A stretch of 64,000 nucleotides of DNA from Pseudonocardia benzenivorans CB1190 (GTDB taxonomy: Bacteria; Actinomycetota; Actinomycetes; Mycobacteriales; Pseudonocardiaceae). The notes under the pieces are model-generated. The model worked only from the letters and a program-made list of their open reading frames with translations, had not been told where the DNA came from and did not search any database. Location: contig NC_015312.1 in the NCBI RefSeq assembly GCF_000196675.2, positions 1,798,001-1,862,000 on the forward strand. The letters are read 5' to 3'. The first letter of the stretch is position 1. Each line of letters opens with the position of its first letter. Both the position numbers and the translations under genes were made by a program. This document shows positions 7,845 to 50,927 of this stretch, piece after piece.

Positions 7845-9035
7845 GTGTCCGGATCCGTGATCGTCGCCGGTGCCCGCACCCCGATGGGGCGCATGCTCGG
7901 TTCGCTCAAGGGCTTCTCTGGCGCCCAACTGGGCGGCATCGCGATCAAGGCCGCCCTGGAGCGTGCCGGGGTCGCCCCGGACGCCGTCGACTACGTGATC
8001 ATGGGCCAGGTCTTGACCGCGGGTGCCGGGCAGATCCCGGCGCGCCAGGCCGCGGCCGCCGCAGGCATTCCGATGGATGTCCCGGCGCTGACGATCAACA
8101 AGGTCTGCCTCTCCGGGATCGATGCCATCGCACTCGCCGACCAGCTCATCCGGGCCGGGGAGTTCGACGTGGTCGTCGCCGGCGGCCAGGAGTCGATGAC
8201 CCAGGCGCCGCACCTGCTCCCCAAGTCGCGCGAGGGCTTCCGCTTCGGCGACGTCACCATGCAGGACCACATGTCGCTCGACGGTCTGTTCTGCGCGTTC
8301 GACCAGGTCGCCATGGGCGCGTCGACCGAGAAGTACAACGCGCGCTACGAGCTCTCCCGCGCCGACCAGGACGAGTTCGCCGCGCGGTCGCACCAGCGCG
8401 CGGCCAAGGCGACCATGGACGGGATCTTCGCCGAGGAGATCACGCCCGTCCAGATCCCGCAGCGCAAGGGTGACCCCGTCTCGTTCACCACGGACGAGGG
8501 CATTCGCGCCGAGACGACGGTCGAGAGCCTCGGAAAGCTGCGCCCCGCGTTCTCCTCCGACGGGACGATCACGGCGGGTTCGTCGTCGCAGATCTCCGAC
8601 GGTGCCGCCGCCGTCGTGGTGATGAGCAAGGCCAAGGCCGAGGAGCTGGGCCTGGCCTGGCTCGCCGAGATCGGCGCGCACGGTGTCGTCGCCGGCCCCG
8701 ACGCCAGCCTCCACGAGCAGCCCGCGAACGCCATTGCGAAGGCCTGCGACAAGGACGGCATCGAGCCGACGGACCTCGACCTCATCGAGATCAACGAGGC
8801 GTTCGCGGCGGTGGGCGTCGTCTCGACCCGCAAGCTCGGCGTGTCCGAGGACATCGTCAACGTCAACGGCGGAGCGATCGCGCTGGGCCACCCGATCGGC
8901 ATGTCGGGCGCTCGCATCGCACTCCACCTGGCGCTGGAGCTGCGCCGCCGTGGAGGCGGTGTGGGTGCCGCGGCGCTGTGCGGTGGCGGCGGCCAGGGCG
9001 ACGCCCTGATCCTGCGCGTTCCGGCGGCCTCCTGA
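7845..9035 (+). CDS. Acetyl-CoA acetyltransferase (thiolase)
   Basis: A 396-residue biosynthetic-type thiolase condensing two acetyl-CoA to acetoacetyl-CoA, or cleaving it. The acyl-accepting Cys88 lies in NKVCLSG, the base His349 in ALGHPIG and the second Cys379 in [15 protein letters not shown] is also present. Spacing matches canonical Cys89/His348/Cys378 numbering. The GTG start at 7845 has GGAGG a few bases upstream; the frame is open to 7695 but without a family-like N terminus. It feeds the hydroxyacyl-CoA dehydrogenase and ccr steps and is followed 49 bases later by meaB, probably in one transcript. Confidence 0.93.
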
Positions 9036-41977: not shown

Positions 41978-42835
41978 TCAGCCCGCGACGTCGAGGACCT
42001 GCCTGATCGAGCGCGCGGCCTCGACGGCGAGCTCCCTGCGCAGCCCGCGCCGGGAGCGGACGGCCAGCGCGATGGGTTCGGCGACGGGCAGGTCGTCGCG
42101 CTCGACGAGTCCCTCCGGCGTGCGCCCGACGGTGGCCAGCAGGGCCACGCCCAACCCCGCCCTGGCGGCGGCCAGCACCCCGCCGAGGTAGGCCGCGTCA
42201 CACACGACGGCGGCGGGCGTGTGGTGCGCGGCAAGGGTTTCCAGGGCCCGGTTGCGGATGGCGCACGGCTCGTCGAAGGCGACGAGCGGGATGGCGGTCC
42301 CGTCGGTCGGGGGAGCCCAGCCGGGTGCGGAGTACCAGCGCAGGGTCAGCCGGCCCGAGCCGGTGGAGCGGTCGTCGTCGGGGGCGCCGAACAGCAGCGC
42401 GAGATCGACGTCGCCCCTGTCCAGGGCCGTCCGCAGCACCGCGCCGCGGTCGAGCCGGAACCGGATGCGGGCGACGCCCAGCGAGGCCTGCAGCGCCGAG
42501 GCCAGCTCGGGCAGCAGCTGGTCGGCGGCGTGCTCGGTCGAGCCGACGACGACCTCGTCGGTCTCGGGTGCGTTGCCGATGCGGCGCATGGCCTCGTCGT
42601 GGATCTCCAGCATCCGCCGGGCGTCGGCCAGCAGCATCTCGCCCGCCGCCGTCAGGCGGGAGGTCCGGCCCTCCCGGACCATCAGGGGCTGCCCGATCGT
42701 CGCCTCCAGCCTGCGGATGTGGTGGCTCACCGTCGGCTGGCTGACGTGCAGTGCATTGGCGGCACGATGGAACCCGCCGCAGTCGGCGACGGCGACGAAG
42801 CTGCGCAGCTGCGTGAGCTCGAGGGTCCTGGCCAT
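41978..42835 (-). CDS. LysR-family transcriptional regulator
   Basis: A 285-residue LysR regulator. The N-terminal winged helix is ELTQLRSFVAVADCGGFHRA with recognition helix VSQPTVSHHIRRLEA; residues from about 90 on form the substrate-binding co-inducer domain. It diverges from the monooxygenase-transporter operon and has a perfect T-N11-A box 20 bases before its start codon, so it very likely controls that operon and itself. ATG 42835 (MARTLELTQL) is preferred to the nine-residue longer frame. The ligand is unknown; a sulfur compound is inferred. Confidence 0.92.
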   Translation of the reverse strand: MARTLELTQLRSFVAVADCGGFHRAANALHVSQPTVSHHIRRLEATIGQPLMVREGRTSRLTAAGEMLLADARRMLEIHDEAMRRIGNAPETDEVVVGSTEHAADQLLPELASALQASLGVARIRFRLDRGAVLRTALDRGDVDLALLFGAPDDDRSTGSGRLTLRWYSAPGWAPPTDGTAIPLVAFDEPCAIRNRALETLAAHHTPAAVVCDAAYLGGVLAAARAGLGVALLATVGRTPEGLVERDDLPVAEPIALAVRSRRGLRRELAVEAARSIRQVLDVAG

Positions 42836-42854
42836 AGGGGGAGCGAAGCACAGA

Positions 42855-42875
42855 CCGATCAATGTTCTCTATCGG
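42855..42875. promoter_or_regulatory. LysR-type operator (T-N11-A box)
   Basis: CCGAT, 11 bases, ATCGG: a perfect five-base inverted repeat with the T-N11-A layout of LysR recognition sites. It lies in the gap between the divergent LysR gene and the monooxygenase operon. A further ATCGG half-site at 42882-42886 could be the activation site. Confidence 0.7.
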
Positions 42876-42988
42876 ATGTGATCGGAACCGCGAGTTGGAC
42901 CGGGCCGATCCCCTCGTGACACCATCGGGTCATGGCAGACCGCCCGGCTTCCGCCCGCACCGCACGGTGCGTGGCCGCCGGCGCCGTC

Positions 42989-43060
42989 ATGCTCACCCGA
43001 CGCCGTGCCGTCGATCTCGGCCGGACGTCCACCGCGACGTGTCGTCGCCACACCGCCTGA
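42989..43060 (+). CDS. Putative sulfur-regulated leader peptide
   Basis: A 23-codon frame encoding a peptide that begins MLTRRRAVDLGRTSTATCRR. It fits the actinobacterial putative-leader-peptide pattern (LTRRxHVDLxRxxSAxC) found upstream of sulfur-uptake and sulfonate-monooxygenase genes. It ends 145 bases before the FMN monooxygenase gene, in the right place to act as an attenuator read by a ribosome sensing Cys supply. An in-frame ATG at 42932 would make it 42 residues. The pattern assignment is from memory. Confidence 0.65.
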   Translation: MLTRRRAVDLGRTSTATCRRHTA

Positions 43061-43205
43061 CCGGCCGCGCCCGCTGAGCGCCGCCGGGGCACCCGTGTGC
43101 CCCGTGCCGGCCGGTCGTCCCATCCCGTGCCTCCGACAGTCCTCGCACCGCTCCCGCGCGCCGCCGCGTCCGGAGCGGCCTCCTCCTGCGCAGAAAGGCG
43201 GACCC

Positions 43206-44576
43206 ATGGTCCGGCAGTTGAAGCTCGGCGCCGTCCTGATGGGGGTCGGCGGCCCCGGCCAGCACGACACCTGGACCCACCCCGAGATCCCCGGCGACGC
43301 CAGCATCGACATCCGCTGGTACATCGAGCGGGCGCGGCAGGCCGAGGCCGCACTGTTCGACCTGGTGTTCATCGTGGACAGCCAGTTCATCACCCCCGAC
43401 TCGCCGCCGCACTACCTCAACCGGCTCGAGCCGCTGACGCTGCTGTCGGCCCTCGCGGTCTCGACCAGCCACATCGGACTCGTCGGCACGCTCACGACGT
43501 CGTACAACACGCCGTTCAACCTGGCGAGGCGGCTCGCGTCGCTGGACCTGATCTCGGGCGGCCGGGCGGGCTGGAACGTCGTCGCGACCGGCGACGGCGG
43601 CACCGCGGCGAACTACAGCCGCGACGAGCACTTCGACTACCCCTCGCGCTACGGCCGGGCGCTGGAGTCGGTGCGGGTCTGCCAGGGGCTGTGGGACTCC
43701 TACGAGGACGACGCGTTCCCGCGCGACGTCGCGACCGGCGTGTTCCTCGACCCGAGCCGCCAGCACCGCCTCGACCACGTCGGCGAGCACTTCTCGGTGC
43801 GCGGGCCGCTCAACATCTCGCGGTCGCCGCAGGGCCGGCCGGTGATCTTCCAGGCCGGCGACTCCGACGAGGGCCGCGACCTCGGCGCGGCCGTCGGCGA
43901 GGGGATCTTCACGCACTCGCCGACGCTGGAGAAGGCGCAGGCGTTCTACCGCGACATCAAGTCCCGGGCCGCGGCCAAGGGGCGCAACCCCGACCACGTC
44001 GTGATCATGCCCGGCGTCACGCCGGTCATCGCCGACACCGACGACGAGGCCCGCGAGATCGAGCGCGCCACCCGGCTCGGGAAGGACTTCGACAAGAACC
44101 TCGCCCAGTTCGGCAGGCCCTTCGGCTGGCACGACTTCTCGGGCTACGACCTCGACGCGCCCTTCCCGGAGCTGGGCGACCTCGGCGCCGACTCCTTCCG
44201 CACCCAGGCCGAGCAGATCAAGAAGGTGGCCAGGGAGAACGGCTTCACGCTGCGCCAGACCGTGGAGCACTTCATGTCGTCGACACCCGCGCCGTTCGTC
44301 GGCTCGGCCCCGACCGTCGCCGCCGAGATCGAGCGCTGGTTCACCGGCCGCGGTCTCGACGGGCTCAACGTGCACGTCACCGTGCCCAGCGAGTTCGCCC
44401 GGTTCACCGACGAGGTGCTCCCGATCCTGCGCGAGCGCGGCGTCGTGCGCGCCGACTACGAGGCCACGACCCTGCGCGGCAACCTCGGGCTGCCGATCCC
44501 GCGCAACGTCCACACCGTGGAGCGGGAGGCCCGCGAGGCGCGCGACGCCCGCGTCCCGGCACCCGCACACGCCTGA
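43206..44576 (+). CDS. FMN-dependent monooxygenase (NtaA/SnaA/DszA family)
   Basis: A 456-residue bacterial-luciferase-like oxygenase. Family segments include GRAGWNVVATGDGGTAANYS, HFDYPSRYGRALE and GEHFSVRGPLNISRSPQGRP. Members use FMNH2 and O2 from a separate reductase to open nitrilotriacetate, pristinamycin or dibenzothiophene sulfone, and many desulfurise organosulfur compounds or dialkyl sulfides. No flavin reductase is present in the operon. ATG 43206 follows AGAAAGGCGG. It heads a seven-gene operon with an importer, a hydrolase and a cupin, so the substrate is probably taken up by the adjacent transporter. Confidence 0.9.
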   Translation: MVRQLKLGAVLMGVGGPGQHDTWTHPEIPGDASIDIRWYIERARQAEAALFDLVFIVDSQFITPDSPPHYLNRLEPLTLLSALAVSTSHIGLVGTLTTSYNTPFNLARRLASLDLISGGRAGWNVVATGDGGTAANYSRDEHFDYPSRYGRALESVRVCQGLWDSYEDDAFPRDVATGVFLDPSRQHRLDHVGEHFSVRGPLNISRSPQGRPVIFQAGDSDEGRDLGAAVGEGIFTHSPTLEKAQAFYRDIKSRAAAKGRNPDHVVIMPGVTPVIADTDDEAREIERATRLGKDFDKNLAQFGRPFGWHDFSGYDLDAPFPELGDLGADSFRTQAEQIKKVARENGFTLRQTVEHFMSSTPAPFVGSAPTVAAEIERWFTGRGLDGLNVHVTVPSEFARFTDEVLPILRERGVVRADYEATTLRGNLGLPIPRNVHTVEREAREARDARVPAPAHA

Positions 44577-44606
44577 CCGACCCGAGTCCCCGGAGGACCA
44601 ACCCTC

Positions 44607-46139
44607 ATGGCCCGCCCCCGCACCCTGCTCAGACTGGCCGCGCTCGCCGCGGCCGCCGCCGTCGCCCTCGCCGGTTGCGGCGCCGGCGCCGGCTCGGCGT
44701 CCGGATCGACCCTGAAGTGGGGCTTCTCCCTGCCCACGTCGTGGGACCCGGTCACGTCCAGCACCGGCAACGACATCAACACGATCAGCCTCGTCTACGC
44801 CTCGCTCACCCAGCTCGACGAGAAGGCCACCGCCATCCCGGGCCTGGCCCGGTCGTGGGACTACAACGCCGACGGCACCGCCGTCACGTTCCACCTGCGG
44901 CCCGGCCTGACCTTCACCGACGGCACCCCGCTCGACGCCGACGCGGTGAAGCAGAGCCTGCTGCGCGGCAAGACCCAGCAGAACTCGCTGCTCAAGGACC
45001 AGCTGGCGACGATCTCCGACATCACCACCTCCGGTGACCTCGACGTCACCCTGCACCTGGCGGCGCCGGACTACCAGGTGCCCAACCTGCTGGCGGGCAA
45101 GACCGGCGAGATCGTCAGCCCCGCGGCGTTCACCAAGGACGCGGCCGCGATCCCGACCGCGCCGGTCGGGGCCGGCCCCTTCAAGTTCGAGTCGTTCGTG
45201 CCGGAGTCGAAGGCCGTGCTGGTCAAGAACCCGGGCTACTGGAACGCCGACGCGATCAAGATCGACCGCTTGGAGCTCACCCCCACGACCGACCCGGCGA
45301 CGGTCATCGCCGCCGTGCAGTCCGGGGCCCTCGACGTCTCGTTCATCCCCGGCAACCAGATCCCGCAGGCCAAGGCCGCGGGGCTCGAGGTCGACGTCAT
45401 CGACTCGATGCAGGTCAACCAGGTCGACGTCAACAGCACCCTCGAACCGTTGACCGACCGCCGCGTCGTCGACGCCCTCAAGTACGCGATCGACCGCGAG
45501 CAGATCATCGACGTGATCAACGGCGGCGTCGGCGACGCCGTCTCCCAGCCGTTCCCGAAGGGCTACGTCGCCTACGACCCGAGCCTGGACACCGCCTTCG
45601 CCTACGACCCGGCCAAGGCCAGGCAGATGCTCGCCGACGCCGGCTACGCGCCGGGGCAGCTCTCGCTCACGGTGACCGTCAACGCGCTCTCGCAGGCGAC
45701 CGCCGAGCTCGTCCAGCAGCAGCTGCAGGCGGTCGGCGTCAACGCGACGATCAAGGTGGTGCCGCCGGGCTCGTCGACCTGGCAGCAGGAGGTCTACCTG
45801 GGCCGCAAGGCGCAGTTCGCGCTCGACGGCACCGTCGGCCGCGAGTCGCCGGTGCAGAACCTCATGGTGGTCTACGGGTCGCAGGGCCTGATGAACACGA
45901 GCAAGGTCGCGACGCCGGAGTTCCTCGCCGCGCTCGACGCGGTGCGCCGCACCCCGCTCGACGCCCCGAACTACCCGCAGGTGCTGCAGGCCGCGGTGCG
46001 CGCGGGCGTGCAGATGTCGCCGAGCTTCTCCCTCGGCACCCAGCCGCGCGTCGCGGTGCGCAGCAAGAAGGTCTCGCCGCTGCCGCACTTCCTGTCGCAG
46101 TACCGGTGGGAGGGCGTCACGGTGGGGAGCCCGTCGTGA
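44607..46139 (+). CDS. ABC transporter substrate-binding lipoprotein (peptide/nickel type)
   Basis: A 510-residue SBP_bac_5 family lipoprotein. The signal peptide ends in a clear lipobox, VALAGCGAGAGS. The mature protein has the typical RSWDYNADGTAVTFHLRPGL and FTDGTPLDADAVKQSLLRG segments. It captures the substrate outside the membrane and delivers it to the two permeases encoded next. GGAGGA precedes ATG 44607. Its stop overlaps the next start as GTGA. Ligand specificity cannot be read, but the monooxygenase suggests an organosulfur compound. Confidence 0.93.
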   Translation: MARPRTLLRLAALAAAAAVALAGCGAGAGSASGSTLKWGFSLPTSWDPVTSSTGNDINTISLVYASLTQLDEKATAIPGLARSWDYNADGTAVTFHLRPGLTFTDGTPLDADAVKQSLLRGKTQQNSLLKDQLATISDITTSGDLDVTLHLAAPDYQVPNLLAGKTGEIVSPAAFTKDAAAIPTAPVGAGPFKFESFVPESKAVLVKNPGYWNADAIKIDRLELTPTTDPATVIAAVQSGALDVSFIPGNQIPQAKAAGLEVDVIDSMQVNQVDVNSTLEPLTDRRVVDALKYAIDREQIIDVINGGVGDAVSQPFPKGYVAYDPSLDTAFAYDPAKARQMLADAGYAPGQLSLTVTVNALSQATAELVQQQLQAVGVNATIKVVPPGSSTWQQEVYLGRKAQFALDGTVGRESPVQNLMVVYGSQGLMNTSKVATPEFLAALDAVRRTPLDAPNYPQVLQAAVRAGVQMSPSFSLGTQPRVAVRSKKVSPLPHFLSQYRWEGVTVGSPS

Positions 46140-47173
46140 CCGCGACGGTCGTCGAGAGCACCTGGGCGAACCCGGCCGCCGTCGCGGGACCCGCGCGCGG
46201 CGGCGCGGTCCCGGCCGTCGCGGGCGCGGCCCGCTGGCTCCTGCGCACCCTCGCGCTCACCGTCCCCGTCTTCCTGTTCGCGACGTTCCTGACGTTCCTG
46301 CTGGGCGCGGTCAGCGGGCTGAGCCCGGCCGGTCTCCTGCTCGGTGACGCGGCCACCCCGGCCGACGTGGCCCGCGTCCGCGCCGAGCTCGGGCTCGACC
46401 GGCCCGTGCTCGTGCAGTACGTCGACTGGCTCTCCCACGTCGTGCGCGGAGACTTCGGCAGCTCGTGGCTCAACGGGGTCAGCGTGTCGTCGCAGATCGG
46501 CGACCGCCTCTCGGTCAGCCTCTCGGTGGCCGGGTTCGCGCTGCTCATCGCGGTGGTCGCGGGCACGGCGCTCGGCGTGGGCGCCGCGGTGTGGCGCGGG
46601 ACGTGGTTCGACCGCGCGGTGACGGTCTTCTGCTCGGTCGTGGCCGCGCTGCCGCCGTTCGTCGTGGCCGTCGCGCTGATCGTGGTGTTCAGCGTGCTGC
46701 TGCCGCTGGTCCCGTCGGCCGGGTACGTGCCGTTCGACCAGGACCCCGGCATGTGGCTGACCCTGATCACGCTGCCGGCCGTCGCGCTGAGCCTCGACGC
46801 CGTCGCCGACATCGCCCGCCAGCTGCGCACCGGTCTCGCCGGGGCCTATCGGGAGAACTACGTGCTGGGCGCCGTCGTCCGCGGGCTCGGTCCGCGCCGC
46901 ATCCTGTTCAACCACGTGCTGCGCAACGGTGCCGGCCCCGCACTGAGCGTGCTCGGGCTGCGCATCCCGATGCTCGTCGGCGGTGCCGTCGTCACCGAGT
47001 CGATCTTCGGCATGTCGGGCTTCGGCCGCTTCGCCGCCGACGGCGCGTTGCGCGGCGACGTCCCGGTCGTGCAGGGCACGCTCGTCGTCGCGATCGTGCT
47101 GGTGCTCGTGGCGAACACGATCGTCGACGCGCTGCTGCTGCGGCTGCGCCCCGCCGCCCGGCGGAGGTCCTGA
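46136..47173 (+). CDS. ABC transporter permease (DppB type)
   Basis: A 345-residue inner-membrane permease with about six transmembrane segments. The ATPase-contact EAA loop includes AYRENYVLGAVVRGLGPRRI, and the N-terminal LGLDRPVLVQYVDWLSHVVRGDFG segment is typical of DppB. It starts with GTG 46136 overlapping the previous stop by four bases. The N-terminal 30 residues before the first helix are longer than usual. It pairs with the next permease in the peptide-type importer. Confidence 0.92.
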   Translation: MTATVVESTWANPAAVAGPARGGAVPAVAGAARWLLRTLALTVPVFLFATFLTFLLGAVSGLSPAGLLLGDAATPADVARVRAELGLDRPVLVQYVDWLSHVVRGDFGSSWLNGVSVSSQIGDRLSVSLSVAGFALLIAVVAGTALGVGAAVWRGTWFDRAVTVFCSVVAALPPFVVAVALIVVFSVLLPLVPSAGYVPFDQDPGMWLTLITLPAVALSLDAVADIARQLRTGLAGAYRENYVLGAVVRGLGPRRILFNHVLRNGAGPALSVLGLRIPMLVGGAVVTESIFGMSGFGRFAADGALRGDVPVVQGTLVVAIVLVLVANTIVDALLLRLRPAARRRS

Positions 47174-48024
47174 TGCGCCGCGTCCTCGCCGGCCGGGTGG
47201 GCGTGGTCTCGGTCGCGGTGCTGGCGGTGATCGCGCTGCTCGCCGCGTTCGGGCCGCTGCTCGCCCCGCACGACCCGCTGTTGCAGGACCCGCGCGCGAT
47301 CCTCGCCGGGCCGTCGGCACAGCACTGGCTGGGCACCGACAACCTCGGCCGCGACGTGCTCAGCCGGCTGCTCGCCGGGTCGACGCTCTCGCTGGTCGCG
47401 GGCGTCGAGGCCGTGGCCGTGGGGCTGGTGCTCGGCGTCGTTCCGGCGCTGCTGTCGGTCCATCTCGGACGGGTCGTCGAGTGGGTGTCGCTGCGCGTCA
47501 TGGAGACGTTCGTGACCCTTCCGTTCCTGGTGTTCGCCGTCGCGATGACCGCGTTGCTGGGCAACGGGTTGCAGCAGGCGATGCTCGCCGTCGGGATCCT
47601 GATCGCCCCCGGCTTCTACCGGGTCACCCGCGCCGCGGCGCTGCCCGTCGCGACCGCCCAGTACGTCGAGGCCGCCGTGCTCGCCGGCGCCTCGCCGTGG
47701 ACCGTCCTGCGCCGGCACGTGTGGCCCAAGGTCGTCCCCGCCGTCGCGGTGAGCACCGCGAGCCTGCTGGGGGCGAGCCTGGTGATCGTGTCGTCGCTGA
47801 CGTTCCTCGGCATCGGCATCACCCCGCCGACGCCGACGTGGGGCGGGATGCTCGCCACCGACCTGCAGTACCTCTACCAACGCCCGTTCGGCCCGTTCGT
47901 GCCCGCGGCGCTGATCGTCGCGACGGTCGGGGCGTGCAACGGGCTCGCCGACGCGCTGCGGGACGGCCCGTCCCGCCGTCCCGCCCGGCGGAAGGTGGTG
48001 GCCGATGTTGCTGCGAGTACGTGA
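47173..48024 (+). CDS. ABC transporter permease (DppC type)
   Basis: A 283-residue permease of the DppC class: N-terminal helix, then HWLGTDNLGRDVLSRLLAG, the characteristic DppC motif, and an EAA loop near QYVEAAVLAGASPWTVLRRH. About six membrane segments. It starts one base into the preceding stop codon (TGATG), and its own end overlaps the next gene by 20 bases, so the operon is tightly coupled. Confidence 0.92.
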   Translation: MRRVLAGRVGVVSVAVLAVIALLAAFGPLLAPHDPLLQDPRAILAGPSAQHWLGTDNLGRDVLSRLLAGSTLSLVAGVEAVAVGLVLGVVPALLSVHLGRVVEWVSLRVMETFVTLPFLVFAVAMTALLGNGLQQAMLAVGILIAPGFYRVTRAAALPVATAQYVEAAVLAGASPWTVLRRHVWPKVVPAVAVSTASLLGASLVIVSSLTFLGIGITPPTPTWGGMLATDLQYLYQRPFGPFVPAALIVATVGACNGLADALRDGPSRRPARRKVVADVAAST

Positions 48025-48814
48025 CCTGTCCGTCCACACCGGGGACACGACGCTCGTCTCCGGGGTGGACCTGCGGCTCGACCGCGGTGCGACGCTGGGC
48101 GTCGTCGGGGAGTCGGGCAGCGGCAAGTCGCTGACCTGCCGGTCGATCCTCGGCATCCTGCCGCCGGGCCTGCGCAACGGCGACGGGACCGTCGTCGAGT
48201 TCGACGGGACCGATCTGCGCGGGCTCGACGAGCGCGGCTGGCGCGAGTACCGCGGCACCCGCATCGGCGCGGTGTTCCAGGACCCGGCCTCCTACCTCAA
48301 CCCGTCGATCGGTGTCGGTGCCCAGCTCGCGGAGGTGCTGCGGGTCCGCGTCGGCCTCGGCAGGCGCGCCGCCCGCGACCGTGCCGTGGAGCTGCTGGCG
48401 GACATGGGGCTGCGCGACCCGGCGCGGGTGTACCGGCAGTACCCGTTCGAGCTCTCCGGCGGCATGCTGCAGCGGGTGCTGATCGCCGTCGCGATCAGTG
48501 CCGAGCCCGACCTGCTCATCGCCGACGAGGCGACCACCGCCCTCGACGTCACCGTGCAGGCCGAGGTCCTCGACCTGCTCGCCGACCTGCGCGACCGCAC
48601 CGGGCTCGCGCTGCTGCTCGTCTCGCACGACCTCGCCGTCGTCGCGCAGGTCTGCGACGAGGTGATCGTCATGCGCGACGGCGCGGTCGTCGAACGCGGG
48701 CGCGCGGGCGACGTGCTCGCCGCACCGTCGCACCCCTACACCCGTTCGCTGATCGACGCGCACACCCGCTACGGCATCGAGAAGTTCCGGCTCGAGGAGG
48801 CGCAGCGTGGCTGA
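48005..48814 (+). CDS. ABC transporter ATP-binding protein (DppD type)
   Basis: A 269-residue ATPase: Walker A GESGSGKS, signature LSGGMLQRVLIAVAIS, Walker B LLIADEATTALD and switch His in LVSHDLAVVAQ. The C-terminal SHPYTRSLIDA motif is typical of oligopeptide-type ATPases, though it is shorter than usual and lacks the iron-sulfur-like cysteine cluster seen in some. It overlaps the gene before by 20 bases and the one after by 8. Confidence 0.92.
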   Translation: MLLRVRDLSVHTGDTTLVSGVDLRLDRGATLGVVGESGSGKSLTCRSILGILPPGLRNGDGTVVEFDGTDLRGLDERGWREYRGTRIGAVFQDPASYLNPSIGVGAQLAEVLRVRVGLGRRAARDRAVELLADMGLRDPARVYRQYPFELSGGMLQRVLIAVAISAEPDLLIADEATTALDVTVQAEVLDLLADLRDRTGLALLLVSHDLAVVAQVCDEVIVMRDGAVVERGRAGDVLAAPSHPYTRSLIDAHTRYGIEKFRLEEAQRG

Positions 48815-49658
48815 GCCGCTGCTCGAGGTCGCCGGGTTGGCGGTCGCGCTCGGCCGCGGCCGGGGACGACGCGAGATCCTGCACGGTGTCGACCTCACCG
48901 TCGGGGCGGGCGAGAGCGTCGGGCTGATCGGGGAGACCGGATCGGGCAAGAGCACCCTCGCGCGCACGGTCGTCGGCCTGCACCGCGCGGCACGGGGACG
49001 CATCCGGGTCGCGGGGACGGAGGTGACGTCGTTGCGCGGGCGACGGTTGCGGGCGTTCCGCCGCAGCGGCGTCGTGCAGTACGTGTTCCAGGACCCGCTG
49101 CGCAGCCTCGACCCCGACCTGACGGTGGGGGAGTCCGTCGGGTTCGGGATCCCGGACGCGGGCTCCCGGGTGGCCGATGCGCTCCGTCTCGTCGGCCTCG
49201 ACCCGGCGCTCGCGTCCCGGCTGCCGGGGGAGGTCTCCGGCGGGCAGCGGCAGCGCGCCGCGATCGCCCGCGCGATGATCGCCGGGCCGCGCCTGCTGAT
49301 CTGCGACGAACCCGTCAGCGCGCTCGACGCCGCGACCCGCGTGCAGGTCCTCGACCTGCTCGTCGCGCTCTGTTCCGAGAACGGCATCGGCCTGCTCTAC
49401 ATCTCCCACGACCTCGGGTCGGTCGCGGGCGTCACCGACCGGCTCGCCGTGCTGCACCACGGCGACGTCGTCGAGGCGGGCACGACCGAGCAGGTCGTCG
49501 CCGCCCCGCGCCATCCCTACACCCGCCTGCTCATCGGCTCGGCCCCCACCGTCGACGGCGGGGGCATGAGCCGCACGGAGCGCGCCGAGCTGCGCGCCCT
49601 GTTGTCCGCGAGCTCGTCCACGGGCGGGTCCGTCCCGCTCGGAAAGGTGGTTCCGTGA
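48807..49658 (+). CDS. ABC transporter ATP-binding protein (DppF type)
   Basis: A 283-residue second ATPase: Walker A GETGSGKST, signature VSGGQRQRAAIARAM, Walker B LLICDEPVSALD and YISHDLGSVAG with the switch His. RHPYTRLLIGSAP near the end matches the DppF class. It starts with GTG 48807 inside the previous gene and its stop overlaps the hydrolase start as GTGA. It forms a heterodimer with the previous gene product. Confidence 0.92.
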   Translation: MAEPLLEVAGLAVALGRGRGRREILHGVDLTVGAGESVGLIGETGSGKSTLARTVVGLHRAARGRIRVAGTEVTSLRGRRLRAFRRSGVVQYVFQDPLRSLDPDLTVGESVGFGIPDAGSRVADALRLVGLDPALASRLPGEVSGGQRQRAAIARAMIAGPRLLICDEPVSALDAATRVQVLDLLVALCSENGIGLLYISHDLGSVAGVTDRLAVLHHGDVVEAGTTEQVVAAPRHPYTRLLIGSAPTVDGGGMSRTERAELRALLSASSSTGGSVPLGKVVP

Positions 49659-50434
49659 CCGTCACGAGTGCCGGCCCCGGCACAGTCCCCAGGACGCCCG
49701 ACGCCGTCCCGGTCGTCGCTTCCTGGCGCGAGCCGGCCGGCGTCAGCCCGCGCGGGACGGTCGTCGTCGTCCCCGGACGGGGCGAGCACGCCGGGGTCTA
49801 CGAGCGGTTCGGTCGTCGGATCAGCGCGGACGGCTACCGCGTCTGGGCCGTCGCCGACCCCACGGTCGACGCCGACCGGACCGAGGGCCAGGTCCGGGCG
49901 CTGCTGCCCGCCGAACCCGGGCCGGTCGTGCTCGTCGGGTCCGACAGCGGTGCGCTCTTCGCCGCCGGTCTCGTCGCGTCCGGGTTGCCGCACGTCGCCG
50001 GGCTCGTCCTCGCCGGGCTGCCCGCGTCCGCCGGTGCCGCCCCCGGGTCGTGGGACGACGAGCTCGCCGCCCGGACCGCCTGCCCGACGCACCTGGCTAG
50101 GCTCGGCGACGACCCCGCCGTGCGCCGCGGTGCGCTCGCCGACGCGATCCCGCCGTCCTGGTTCGCCGCGGCGGACCCAGCGGCCGTCGGTGTCCCGGTG
50201 CTCGGCGTGCACGGCGCGGCCGACACCGTCAGCCCGCTCGACGGAGCCCGCGGCTGGTACGCGGGCGTCGCGACCGTCGAGCTCGTCACCGTCGTCGGCG
50301 GGCGGCACGACGCGCTCAACGACGCCACCCACCGCGCCGCCGCGGCATCGGTGGTGCTGTTCCTCGAGCGCCTGCGGCTGGGCCCGGACCTGCCCGCGAT
50401 CGTCCGCGTCGAGACCCCGGGGGCCGCCCGATGA
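49655..50434 (+). CDS. Alpha/beta hydrolase
   Basis: A 259-residue alpha/beta-hydrolase fold protein. The N-terminal strand and oxyanion region is GTVVVVPGRGEHAGVYERF, the nucleophile elbow is GSDSGALF (Ser in the small-x-Ser-x-small pattern), the acid is probably in VHGAADTVSP and the base His in GGRHDALND. It may cleave an ester or thioester product of the monooxygenase step. It overlaps both neighbours by four bases, so it is an integral part of the operon. Confidence 0.83.
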   Translation: MTVTSAGPGTVPRTPDAVPVVASWREPAGVSPRGTVVVVPGRGEHAGVYERFGRRISADGYRVWAVADPTVDADRTEGQVRALLPAEPGPVVLVGSDSGALFAAGLVASGLPHVAGLVLAGLPASAGAAPGSWDDELAARTACPTHLARLGDDPAVRRGALADAIPPSWFAAADPAAVGVPVLGVHGAADTVSPLDGARGWYAGVATVELVTVVGGRHDALNDATHRAAAASVVLFLERLRLGPDLPAIVRVETPGAAR

Positions 50435-50886
50435 CGTTCCATCCCGACCTGACGGCGACCGTGGCACCCTCGCGTGCCCGCATCCACCACGTCCGCGCGG
50501 GGGAGCTGGTCGGCGACACCGCGCAGACCAGCGGCATGACCCGGCTGGAGGCGGTGAGCGGCAAGACCGTCGGCTCCGAGCGGATCTGGACGGGCGAGAC
50601 GCACGTCGCCCCGTCGACCAACTCCGGCAACCACCACCACGGCGAGGCCGAGACGTCGATCTACATCGTCAGCGGACGACCCGCGTTCGTGTTCCACGAC
50701 GGTGCGGGCGAGGTGCGAATCCAGACCGGGCCGGGCGACTACATCTTCGTCCCGCCCTACGTCCCGCACCGTGAGGAGAACCCGGACCCCGACGAGCCGG
50801 CCGTCGTGGTCATCTCGCGGAGCACGCAGGAGGGCATCGTCGTGAACGTGCCGGAGCTGACGCCGTTGCCGGTGGCGCCCGCCTGA
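50431..50886 (+). CDS. Cupin-domain protein
   Basis: A 151-residue single-domain cupin. The metal-site motif is present: GNHHHGEAETSIYIVSG (three His plus Glu) and, on the second strand, PGDYIFVPPYVPHREEN with the fourth His. Such proteins bind Fe, Mn or Ni and act as dioxygenases, isomerases or sensors. It starts as ATGA overlapping the hydrolase stop and ends the operon; a palindromic repeat follows three bases later. It may process the last intermediate of the pathway. Confidence 0.85.
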   Translation: MTFHPDLTATVAPSRARIHHVRAGELVGDTAQTSGMTRLEAVSGKTVGSERIWTGETHVAPSTNSGNHHHGEAETSIYIVSGRPAFVFHDGAGEVRIQTGPGDYIFVPPYVPHREENPDPDEPAVVVISRSTQEGIVVNVPELTPLPVAPA

Positions 50887-50889
50887 CCC

Positions 50890-50927
50890 GTGCGGCGATG
50901 GTCGCCATGGCGACCATCGCCACGCAC
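50890..50927. repeat. Palindromic repeat PR-2, after the cupin gene
   Basis: A diverged copy of the repeat at 31791. A 13-base perfect stem around GGCGATGGTCGCC with a two-base centre is continued by GTGC/GCAC after a two-base bulge. It begins three bases after the cupin stop codon and keeps the CGCACGAG tail seen as CTCACGAG in copy one. Confidence 0.8.

Follow-up and report, generated by a model that had tools for sequence, protein, structure and literature searches.

In a 64,000-nucleotide stretch of Pseudonocardia benzenivorans CB1190 (NC_015312.1, positions 1,798,001 to 1,862,000; hereafter the window), gene calls placed a divergent LysR gene, a short leader open reading frame (ORF) and then eight genes of the + strand up to 50886 (Table 1). 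After the leader, these genes follow in the order flavin mononucleotide (FMN) monooxygenase (moxA), family-5 binding lipoprotein, two Dpp-type permeases, two Dpp-type ATPases, alpha/beta hydrolase and cupin. The original prediction, made from the letters of the window, had described this locus as an organosulfur-acquisition operon under the double control of LysR and a Cys-type leader peptide; the divergent regulator, the monooxygenase, the five-part importer, the hydrolase and the cupin were all located as claimed, and its count of seven genes in the coupled unit had to be corrected, since the listed parts sum to eight. All junctions from the binding protein to the cupin overlap by 1–20 nucleotides (nt) each, which suggests translational coupling. 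Comparative genomics strongly supported the organosulfur-acquisition reading through the co-conservation of leader and LysR gene, the leaderless geometry, the operator position, the O-acetylhomoserine sulfhydrylase MetY replacing LysR and leader elsewhere, and the low Cys and Met content of the proteins. Altogether, we consider it very probable, as judged from sequence comparison, that the operon serves organosulfur acquisition under a LysR-type regulator and a leaderless cysteine-type leader.

Table 1. Features of the LysR-leader-moxA locus (window coordinates)
Feature	Position	Strand	Evidence or remark
LysR-type regulator gene, divergent	41978-42835	-	Pfam HTH_1 82.5 bits, LysR_substrate 48.9 bits, both above cut-off
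Putative LysR box CCGAT-N11-ATCGG	42855-42875	.	Perfect match
Putative promoter: TTGGAC 42895-42900, 19-nt spacer, CACCAT 42920-42925	42895-42925	+	Conservation across loci
Leader ORF, 42 codons, probably leaderless; conserved core 42989-43042 including Cys37	42932-43060	+	NF042934
GC-rich hairpin starting at leader stop codon; possible read-out element	43058-43117	+	Fold versus shuffles
moxA, FMN-dependent monooxygenase, NtaA/DmoA subfamily, YtnJ-like	43206-44576	+	TIGR03860 477.7 bits
Substrate-binding lipoprotein, substrate-binding protein (SBP) family 5	44607-46139	+	Pfam PF00496 253 bits
Dpp/Opp-type permease B (DppB)	46136-47173	+	Pfam BPD_transp_1 and BPD_transp_1_N
Dpp/Opp-type permease C (DppC)	47173-48024	+	Pfam BPD_transp_1 and OppC_N
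Dpp/Opp-type ATPase D (DppD)	48005-48814	+	Pfam ABC_tran
Dpp/Opp-type ATPase F (DppF)	48807-49658	+	Pfam ABC_tran and oligo_HPY
Alpha/beta hydrolase, Asp97 at nucleophile elbow	49655-50434	+	Pfam Hydrolase_4 49.5 bits
Single-domain cupin	50431-50886	+	Pfam Cupin_2 39.4 bits
28-nt perfect palindrome directly past cupin stop; possible transcript end, no U-tract visible	50894-50921	.	

The leader ORF encodes the peptide MADRPASARTARCVAAGAVMLTRRRAVDLGRTSTATCRRHTA, whose only Cys residues, 13 and 37, are separated, and which contains no run of Cys codons. Its C-terminus reads CRRHTA; the Cys-Arg-Arg announced by the original prediction is present, but the peptide ends in His-Thr-Ala and not in Cys-Arg-Arg. 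The proposed fit to the actinobacterial sulfur-leader pattern held up, with 28 bits against the NCBIfam model NF042934 (cis_reg_atten leader peptides; cut-off 27, model 1-19 of 19), or 28.3 bits in the genome-wide scan, and the leader score on a position-specific scoring matrix (PSSM) built from three other loci was equalled by no dinucleotide-shuffled version of the gap out of 200. The equivalog model of the Cys-rich leader Ms5788A (NF042933) gave 21.3 bits, below its cut-off of 45 bits. When the same PSSM was applied to 18 loci outside Pseudonocardia, six scored above every one of the 200 shuffles (L163, however, on the wrong stretch), three lost to one shuffle, three lost to 3–13 shuffles and six failed; note that this PSSM comes from only three loci, and that the matrix test on 80 loci given below is the better one. 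An Rfam scan of the whole window found no RNA family at gathering scores. The CB1190 genome holds 18 NF042934 matches at E up to 10, six of which exceed the cut-off, the window leader ranking third. Among 11 other candidates with E < 0.05, seven precede sulfur or organosulfur-type genes, namely a sulfite/nitrite-reductase family gene, a rhodanese, MetY (above cut-off), an SsuD-like gene, two sets of peptide-type ATP-binding cassette (ABC) genes with a luciferase-like monooxygenase (LLM), and one LLM plus NtaA set, as judged from the part of each gene set that was compared with family libraries. On a larger scale, NF042934-type leaders at E 0.001 or better were identified in 199 of 296 genomes sampled from the class (177 over the cut-off) and in none of 14 control genomes, and some relatives' leaders carry CC pairs. 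As side observations on such leaders, two of those in the CB1190 genome that exceed the cut-off stand before an OsmC-like gene (L045, leader at 8966, - strand) and before a family-less small protein (L047, leader at 966), and in the same genome opposite-strand leader-like ORFs flank LLM, NtaA-type and ABC genes (L048), a region that could be a second organosulfur island.

Among 397 genomes sampled within the order, 22 had a MoxA match with an E value of 1e-140 or better, as did 13 of 62 sampled within the genus Pseudonocardia, with the CB1190 genome included. A scan of named genomes provided 80 loci, which are the best of 160 and leave out distant relatives, and which belong to Pseudonocardia, Frankia, Actinoplanes and relatives, Actinokineospora, Amycolatopsis, Rhodococcus, Gordonia, Williamsia, Sphingomonas and others. 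Importer parts were widely present within these 80 loci (binding protein in 61, DppB in 59, DppC in 58, DppD in 55 and DppF in 54), and MoxA, the binding protein and DppBCD occurred together in 55. The other partners were a divergent LysR gene (52, counted at 45% identity or more), the hydrolase (44), a second MoxA (35), the cupin (30), a flavin adenine dinucleotide (FAD) monooxygenase (23), MetY (15) and an SsuE-like gene (7), all partner counts being lower bounds because contig ends or the 10-kb flank cut some loci. By these comparisons, the gene set is a recurrent actinobacterial cluster and is not peculiar to the P. benzenivorans CB1190 genome. A 17-residue ungapped scoring matrix, trained on seven peptides of the same locus family (six from loci also among the positives), detected the leader in 40 of the 80 loci, with scores of 29.6 or more, while the other 40 loci reached 9.3 or less and 316 control upstream stretches at most 13.1. 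These leaders were confined to loci with a divergent LysR gene (40/52 versus 0/28 without it), and MetY was never found together with LysR. As an example of the latter surroundings, Microbacterium L243 carries a sulfurtransferase-like gene (below cut-off) directly before MoxA; its importer is followed by a hydrolase, by MetY (TIGR01326, 515 bits, above the cut-off of 495) and, with scores under the model cut-offs, by an LLM resembling SfnG and a reductase resembling MsuE. A Streptomyces plasmid locus is annotated with a binding protein, two permeases and two ATPases on its importer side, and with an NtaA/DmoA monooxygenase, an LLM, an alpha/beta hydrolase, ssuE, O-acetylhomoserine sulfhydrylase and homoserine O-acetyltransferase for the rest. 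The cluster is thus apparently accompanied either by sulfur genes or by a cysteine-type leader, as two alternative routes. Literature searches, which covered subscription journals little, found no published description of the whole gene set, which is apparently widespread yet undescribed. Two further observations concern the layout of MoxA loci: MoxA relatives of Sphingomonas, Acetobacteraceae and Pseudomonas (L241, L245, L248, L251 and L252) have an SsuA-like binding protein gene nearby and no DppB/DppC match in the stretch fetched, and in Pseudonocardia sp. MH-G8 (L144, the same locus as L177) a single LysR gene lies between two MoxA clusters in back-to-back arrangement, and both strands bear a leader-like ORF.

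The spacing between a TTGGAC promoter and the start codon of the leader is fixed, and for this reason we call the window leader, in silico, most likely leaderless with a start at 42932. Indeed, this ATG lies in frame 6 nt after the -10 element, and an in-frame start 6–7 nt after NANNNT with an exact TTGGAC 18–19 nt further up (a strict form fixed after a looser version) was found for 38 of 41 leaders, i.e., the 40 above and that of the window, versus 2 of the 1694 remaining start codons that these stretches hold on both strands. Owing to this geometry, a start at 42989 was replaced by 42932; in L187 (the same locus as L145 of the training set) no in-frame leaderless start was found. Generic sigma-70 promoter and terminator scans of 42800-43250 found nothing, a U-tract terminator included, and the promoter was deduced from conservation instead. 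The perfect LysR box between the LysR gene and the operon, CCGATCAATGTTCTCTATCGG, is present as originally predicted, and its centre precedes the -35 hexamer by 30 nt and the predicted transcript start by 67 nt (-67), a region that is the usual place of LysR recognition sites. The perfect palindrome was rejected as proof by itself: about 0.0003 such sites are expected per gap of this kind, but the genome holds nine against ~5.5 expected, and the reversed pattern has one match. The predicted site is convincing through its fixed position, since the best LysR box was centred exactly 30 nt before the -35 hexamer in all 12 Pseudonocardia loci (0–2 mismatches); GTGATCGG was located 17 nt before this hexamer in 11 of the 12.

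MoxA scored 477.7 bits against TIGR03860, the NtaA/DmoA FMN monooxygenases (cut-off 279.7). Against the PDB, the best matches were 3sdo (421 bits, 47% identity) and B. subtilis YtnJ/MoxC (412 bits, 45% identity over 430 residues), followed by DszA (218 bits), dimethyl-sulfide monooxygenase (196 bits) and ethylenediaminetetraacetate (EDTA) monooxygenase (176 bits). The NtaA/DszA-type label of the original prediction was amended, as among solved relatives of known function MoxA is closer to YtnJ than to DszA or EDTA monooxygenase. On these scores, YtnJ is the closest solved MoxA relative of known function, and we take it to be the enzyme now named CmoJ. CmoJ cleaves N-acetyl-S-alkylcysteine sulfoxides (PMC10863075). 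Moreover, Cys and Met together account for 1.17% of the 2556 residues encoded by the operon, compared with 2.16% in a pool of 41 other, script-called genes of the window (one-sided p = 0.0036); a low sulfur content is what one expects of proteins produced when sulfur is short.

The two last genes of the operon appear to form a shared module. In the hydrolase, Asp97, Asp190, His218 and Cys143 were invariant in 31 of 31 aligned sequences, and the elbow pattern G-x-D-x-G was found in 35 of 44 hydrolases and G-x-S-x-G in none, whereas serine alpha/beta hydrolases carry Ser at the nucleophile elbow G-x-S-x-G. The predicted model (predicted local distance difference test, pLDDT, 90) places Asp97 between strand 91-96 and helix 98-108, and its closest folds are monoglyceride lipases, which use Ser as nucleophile. 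Cupin residues His68, His70, Glu74 and His113 were invariant in 25 of 25 aligned sequences, and the fold search with its model (pLDDT 75) named nothing useful. The hydrolase-cupin pair has a different setting in seven Pseudonocardia loci (L082-L088) and in L091 from another genus: there it is preceded by a leader and by genes for a permease, an ATPase and an SsuD-like oxygenase, and the cupin is followed by a gene for an SsuA-like binding protein (gene lists for L082, L085 and L091; family tests on L082). The original view of the operon as neither a standard ssu nor a taurine set consequently stands for importer and oxygenase, but not for the hydrolase-cupin pair, which also belongs to these Ssu-type clusters with the same kind of leader. 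Genome G004 has both MoxA and Ssu-type clusters, and the MoxA stretch fetched there shows no hydrolase or cupin. From this distribution, we infer that hydrolase and cupin serve a step shared by different C-S oxygenases.

Several known systems resemble parts of this locus. Gordonia terrae C-6 genes GTC6_13080-13100 encode an FMNH2 monooxygenase, a peptide binding protein and three ABC parts in the same order, and were up 37–59-fold by RNA-seq and 10–37-fold by quantitative reverse-transcription PCR on benzothiophene versus sulfate in Table 1 of PMC3868597; that study picked another operon, bdsABC, as the benzothiophene desulfurisation operon of this strain. Oxygenases named nitrilotriacetate monooxygenase, possibly related to MoxA, rise on organosulfur sources in Gordonia NB4-1Y (PMC7661421), and for Rhodococcus IGTS8 they appear in a list of proteins with a probable role in sulfur acquisition (PMC8557817). 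The alkanesulfonate set ssuEADCB likewise combines an FMN oxygenase with an ABC importer for organosulfur, but the window operon differs in importer class (SBP family 5) and oxygenase subfamily, and no ssuE is found among its eight genes. As for the leader, mycobacteria have cysteine-rich upstream ORFs (PMC4633059) and cysteine-responsive leaderless short ORFs (Canestrari et al. 2020, as cited in PMC9094748 and PMC13236596). The window leader is similarly a short, predicted leaderless ORF with Cys codons near its end before sulfur genes; unlike them, it is not polycysteine and it lies behind the putative LysR-controlled promoter of an organosulfur operon.

We therefore propose the following sequence of events. 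The LysR protein would bind the box at -67 and activate the TTGGAC promoter upon a co-inducer or sulfur-shortage signal, as the geometry suggests, and the message would start at the leader ATG, so that a ribosome translates the 42-codon leaderless peptide. When Cys-tRNA is short, the ribosome would pause at Cys37, five codons before the stop, and the operon would be expressed, through a read-out that could be transcriptional or translational. Judging from the protein families, the Dpp-type importer would take up a small organosulfur compound, MoxA, supplied with reduced FMN by a reductase encoded outside the operon, would cleave its C-S bond, and the Asp-elbow hydrolase and the metal cupin would process the substrate or its fragments; sulfide, sulfite or thiol would then feed cysteine and methionine synthesis. 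A thioether or sulfoxide, e.g., an S-alkylated cysteine derivative, is the likeliest substrate class, although this preference is tentative, and sulfones and sulfonates are the next choice. To the broader idea we would give about an even chance, namely that of an unnamed, widespread actinobacterial pathway with a core of Asp-elbow hydrolase and metal cupin, variable importers and C-S oxygenases, and an expression controlled by an AND gate, in which a LysR activator is combined with a cysteine-sensing, leaderless ORF whose first nucleotide is also that of the message. This would provide, if true, many soil actinobacteria (Pseudonocardia, Frankia, Actinoplanes and relatives, Amycolatopsis, Rhodococcus and Gordonia) with an uncharacterised route to the sulfur of organic matter that uses an oxygenase, a non-serine hydrolase and a cupin. 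The promoter layout makes the interplay of a LysR factor and a cysteine-sensing leaderless ORF directly testable, as are the organosulfur compounds supporting these bacteria when sulfate is short, with a bearing on soil sulfur cycling and on biodesulfurisation strains.

A number of results weigh against organosulfur acquisition under double control. Regarding the leader, 12 of the 52 LysR-type loci lack it by the matrix test, the window peptide has only its two, separated Cys codons, and four of the 11 other leader candidates of the genome precede genes without a clear sulfur role (OsmC, no family, SCO4226-like and FAD/NAD-binding). The low sulfur content is not specific to the operon, since 99 proteins around the genome's own leaders average 1.59% Cys+Met. 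Regarding the enzymes, no flavin reductase was found among the eight operon genes, the top PDB match 3sdo was deposited as nitrilotriacetate monooxygenase, MoxA is only 45% identical to YtnJ, so its substrate may differ, and the Gordonia terrae C-6 genes were matched by gene order only. Finally, the hairpin behind the leader, which also folds in L138 and L139, was not clearly better than shuffles (z = -0.38 in the window, -1.25 and -1.18 in the others), and was rejected as an attenuator on the window value. Four of five folded relatives were slightly better than shuffles (z from -1.08 to -1.62), and in a Pseudonocardia metagenome-assembled genome the stretch separating leader and moxA (L146:2910-3055) forms a very stable hairpin (z = -5.42), which lies just ahead of the presumed ribosome-binding site of moxA. 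As the stability resembles that of shuffles in the window and L146 alone stands out, no read-out is claimed.

Other explanations of the enzymes were weighed against the same evidence. We give hardly any credence to the degradation of chelators or amino-polycarboxylates, with MoxA as a C-N cleaving monooxygenase of the nitrilotriacetate/EDTA type fed by a metal-chelate importer: TIGR03860 is named NtaA/DmoA, the depositors' label of 3sdo fits, EDTA monooxygenase is a MoxA homolog and the importer scores against nickel and opine transporters, but EDTA monooxygenase remains at 176 bits versus 412 for YtnJ, the binding protein at 44607 reached the cut-off of none of its 14 NCBIfam matches, and the cysteine-type leader, the MetY linkage and the low Cys+Met content would be left unexplained. 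Salvage of S-alkylcysteine or S-succinocysteine in the strict B. subtilis sense, i.e., N-acetylation, C-S cleavage and deacetylation, is closer to the proposed chemistry, although we regard it as unlikely. YtnJ as the nearest solved enzyme of known function speaks for it, MoxA and CmoJ belonging to the same FMN oxygenase family with C-S cleavage as the probable chemistry, and a peptide-type importer could carry Cys-containing peptides or conjugates. The CmoJ operon includes N-acetyltransferase and deacetylase genes. The yxe/scm operon of B. subtilis, which handles S-(2-succino)cysteine with N-acetyltransferase and deacetylase genes, also resembles the window in joining an importer and a C-S cleaving FMN monooxygenase for cysteine salvage (PMC9706529). 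The eight window genes include neither an acetyltransferase nor a deacetylase from the CmoJ or YxeK pathways, which counts against the favoured reading as well as against strict salvage, and they also lack a CmoO-like LLM and any counterpart of YxeL or YxeP; importer and partners differ from yxe/scm, and the Dpp-type importer, the conserved Asp-elbow alpha/beta hydrolase and the cupin stand instead.

A sulfone or sulfonate pathway, in which small compounds of these two classes would yield sulfite or methanesulfinate through MoxA and its partners, is somewhat unlikely. In its favour, the oxygenase and the reductase beside MetY in L243 best match SfnG and MsuE, both below cut-off, and the hydrolase-cupin pair recurs within the Ssu-type clusters of other Pseudonocardia. 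However, the window operon has neither an Ssu-type importer nor SsuD (MoxA scores 37 bits against the SsuD equivalog TIGR03565, cut-off 518.2), and Dpp-type importers are unusual for small sulfonates. It is very unlikely that the leader is not regulatory, the short ORF being a chance reading frame or a spacer. Its two Cys codons and the hairpin that is not clearly better than shuffles would agree with such an ORF, but a function in regulation is favoured by the protein-level conservation in 40 of the 80 loci, the ungapped 17-residue core and the fixed promoter geometry.

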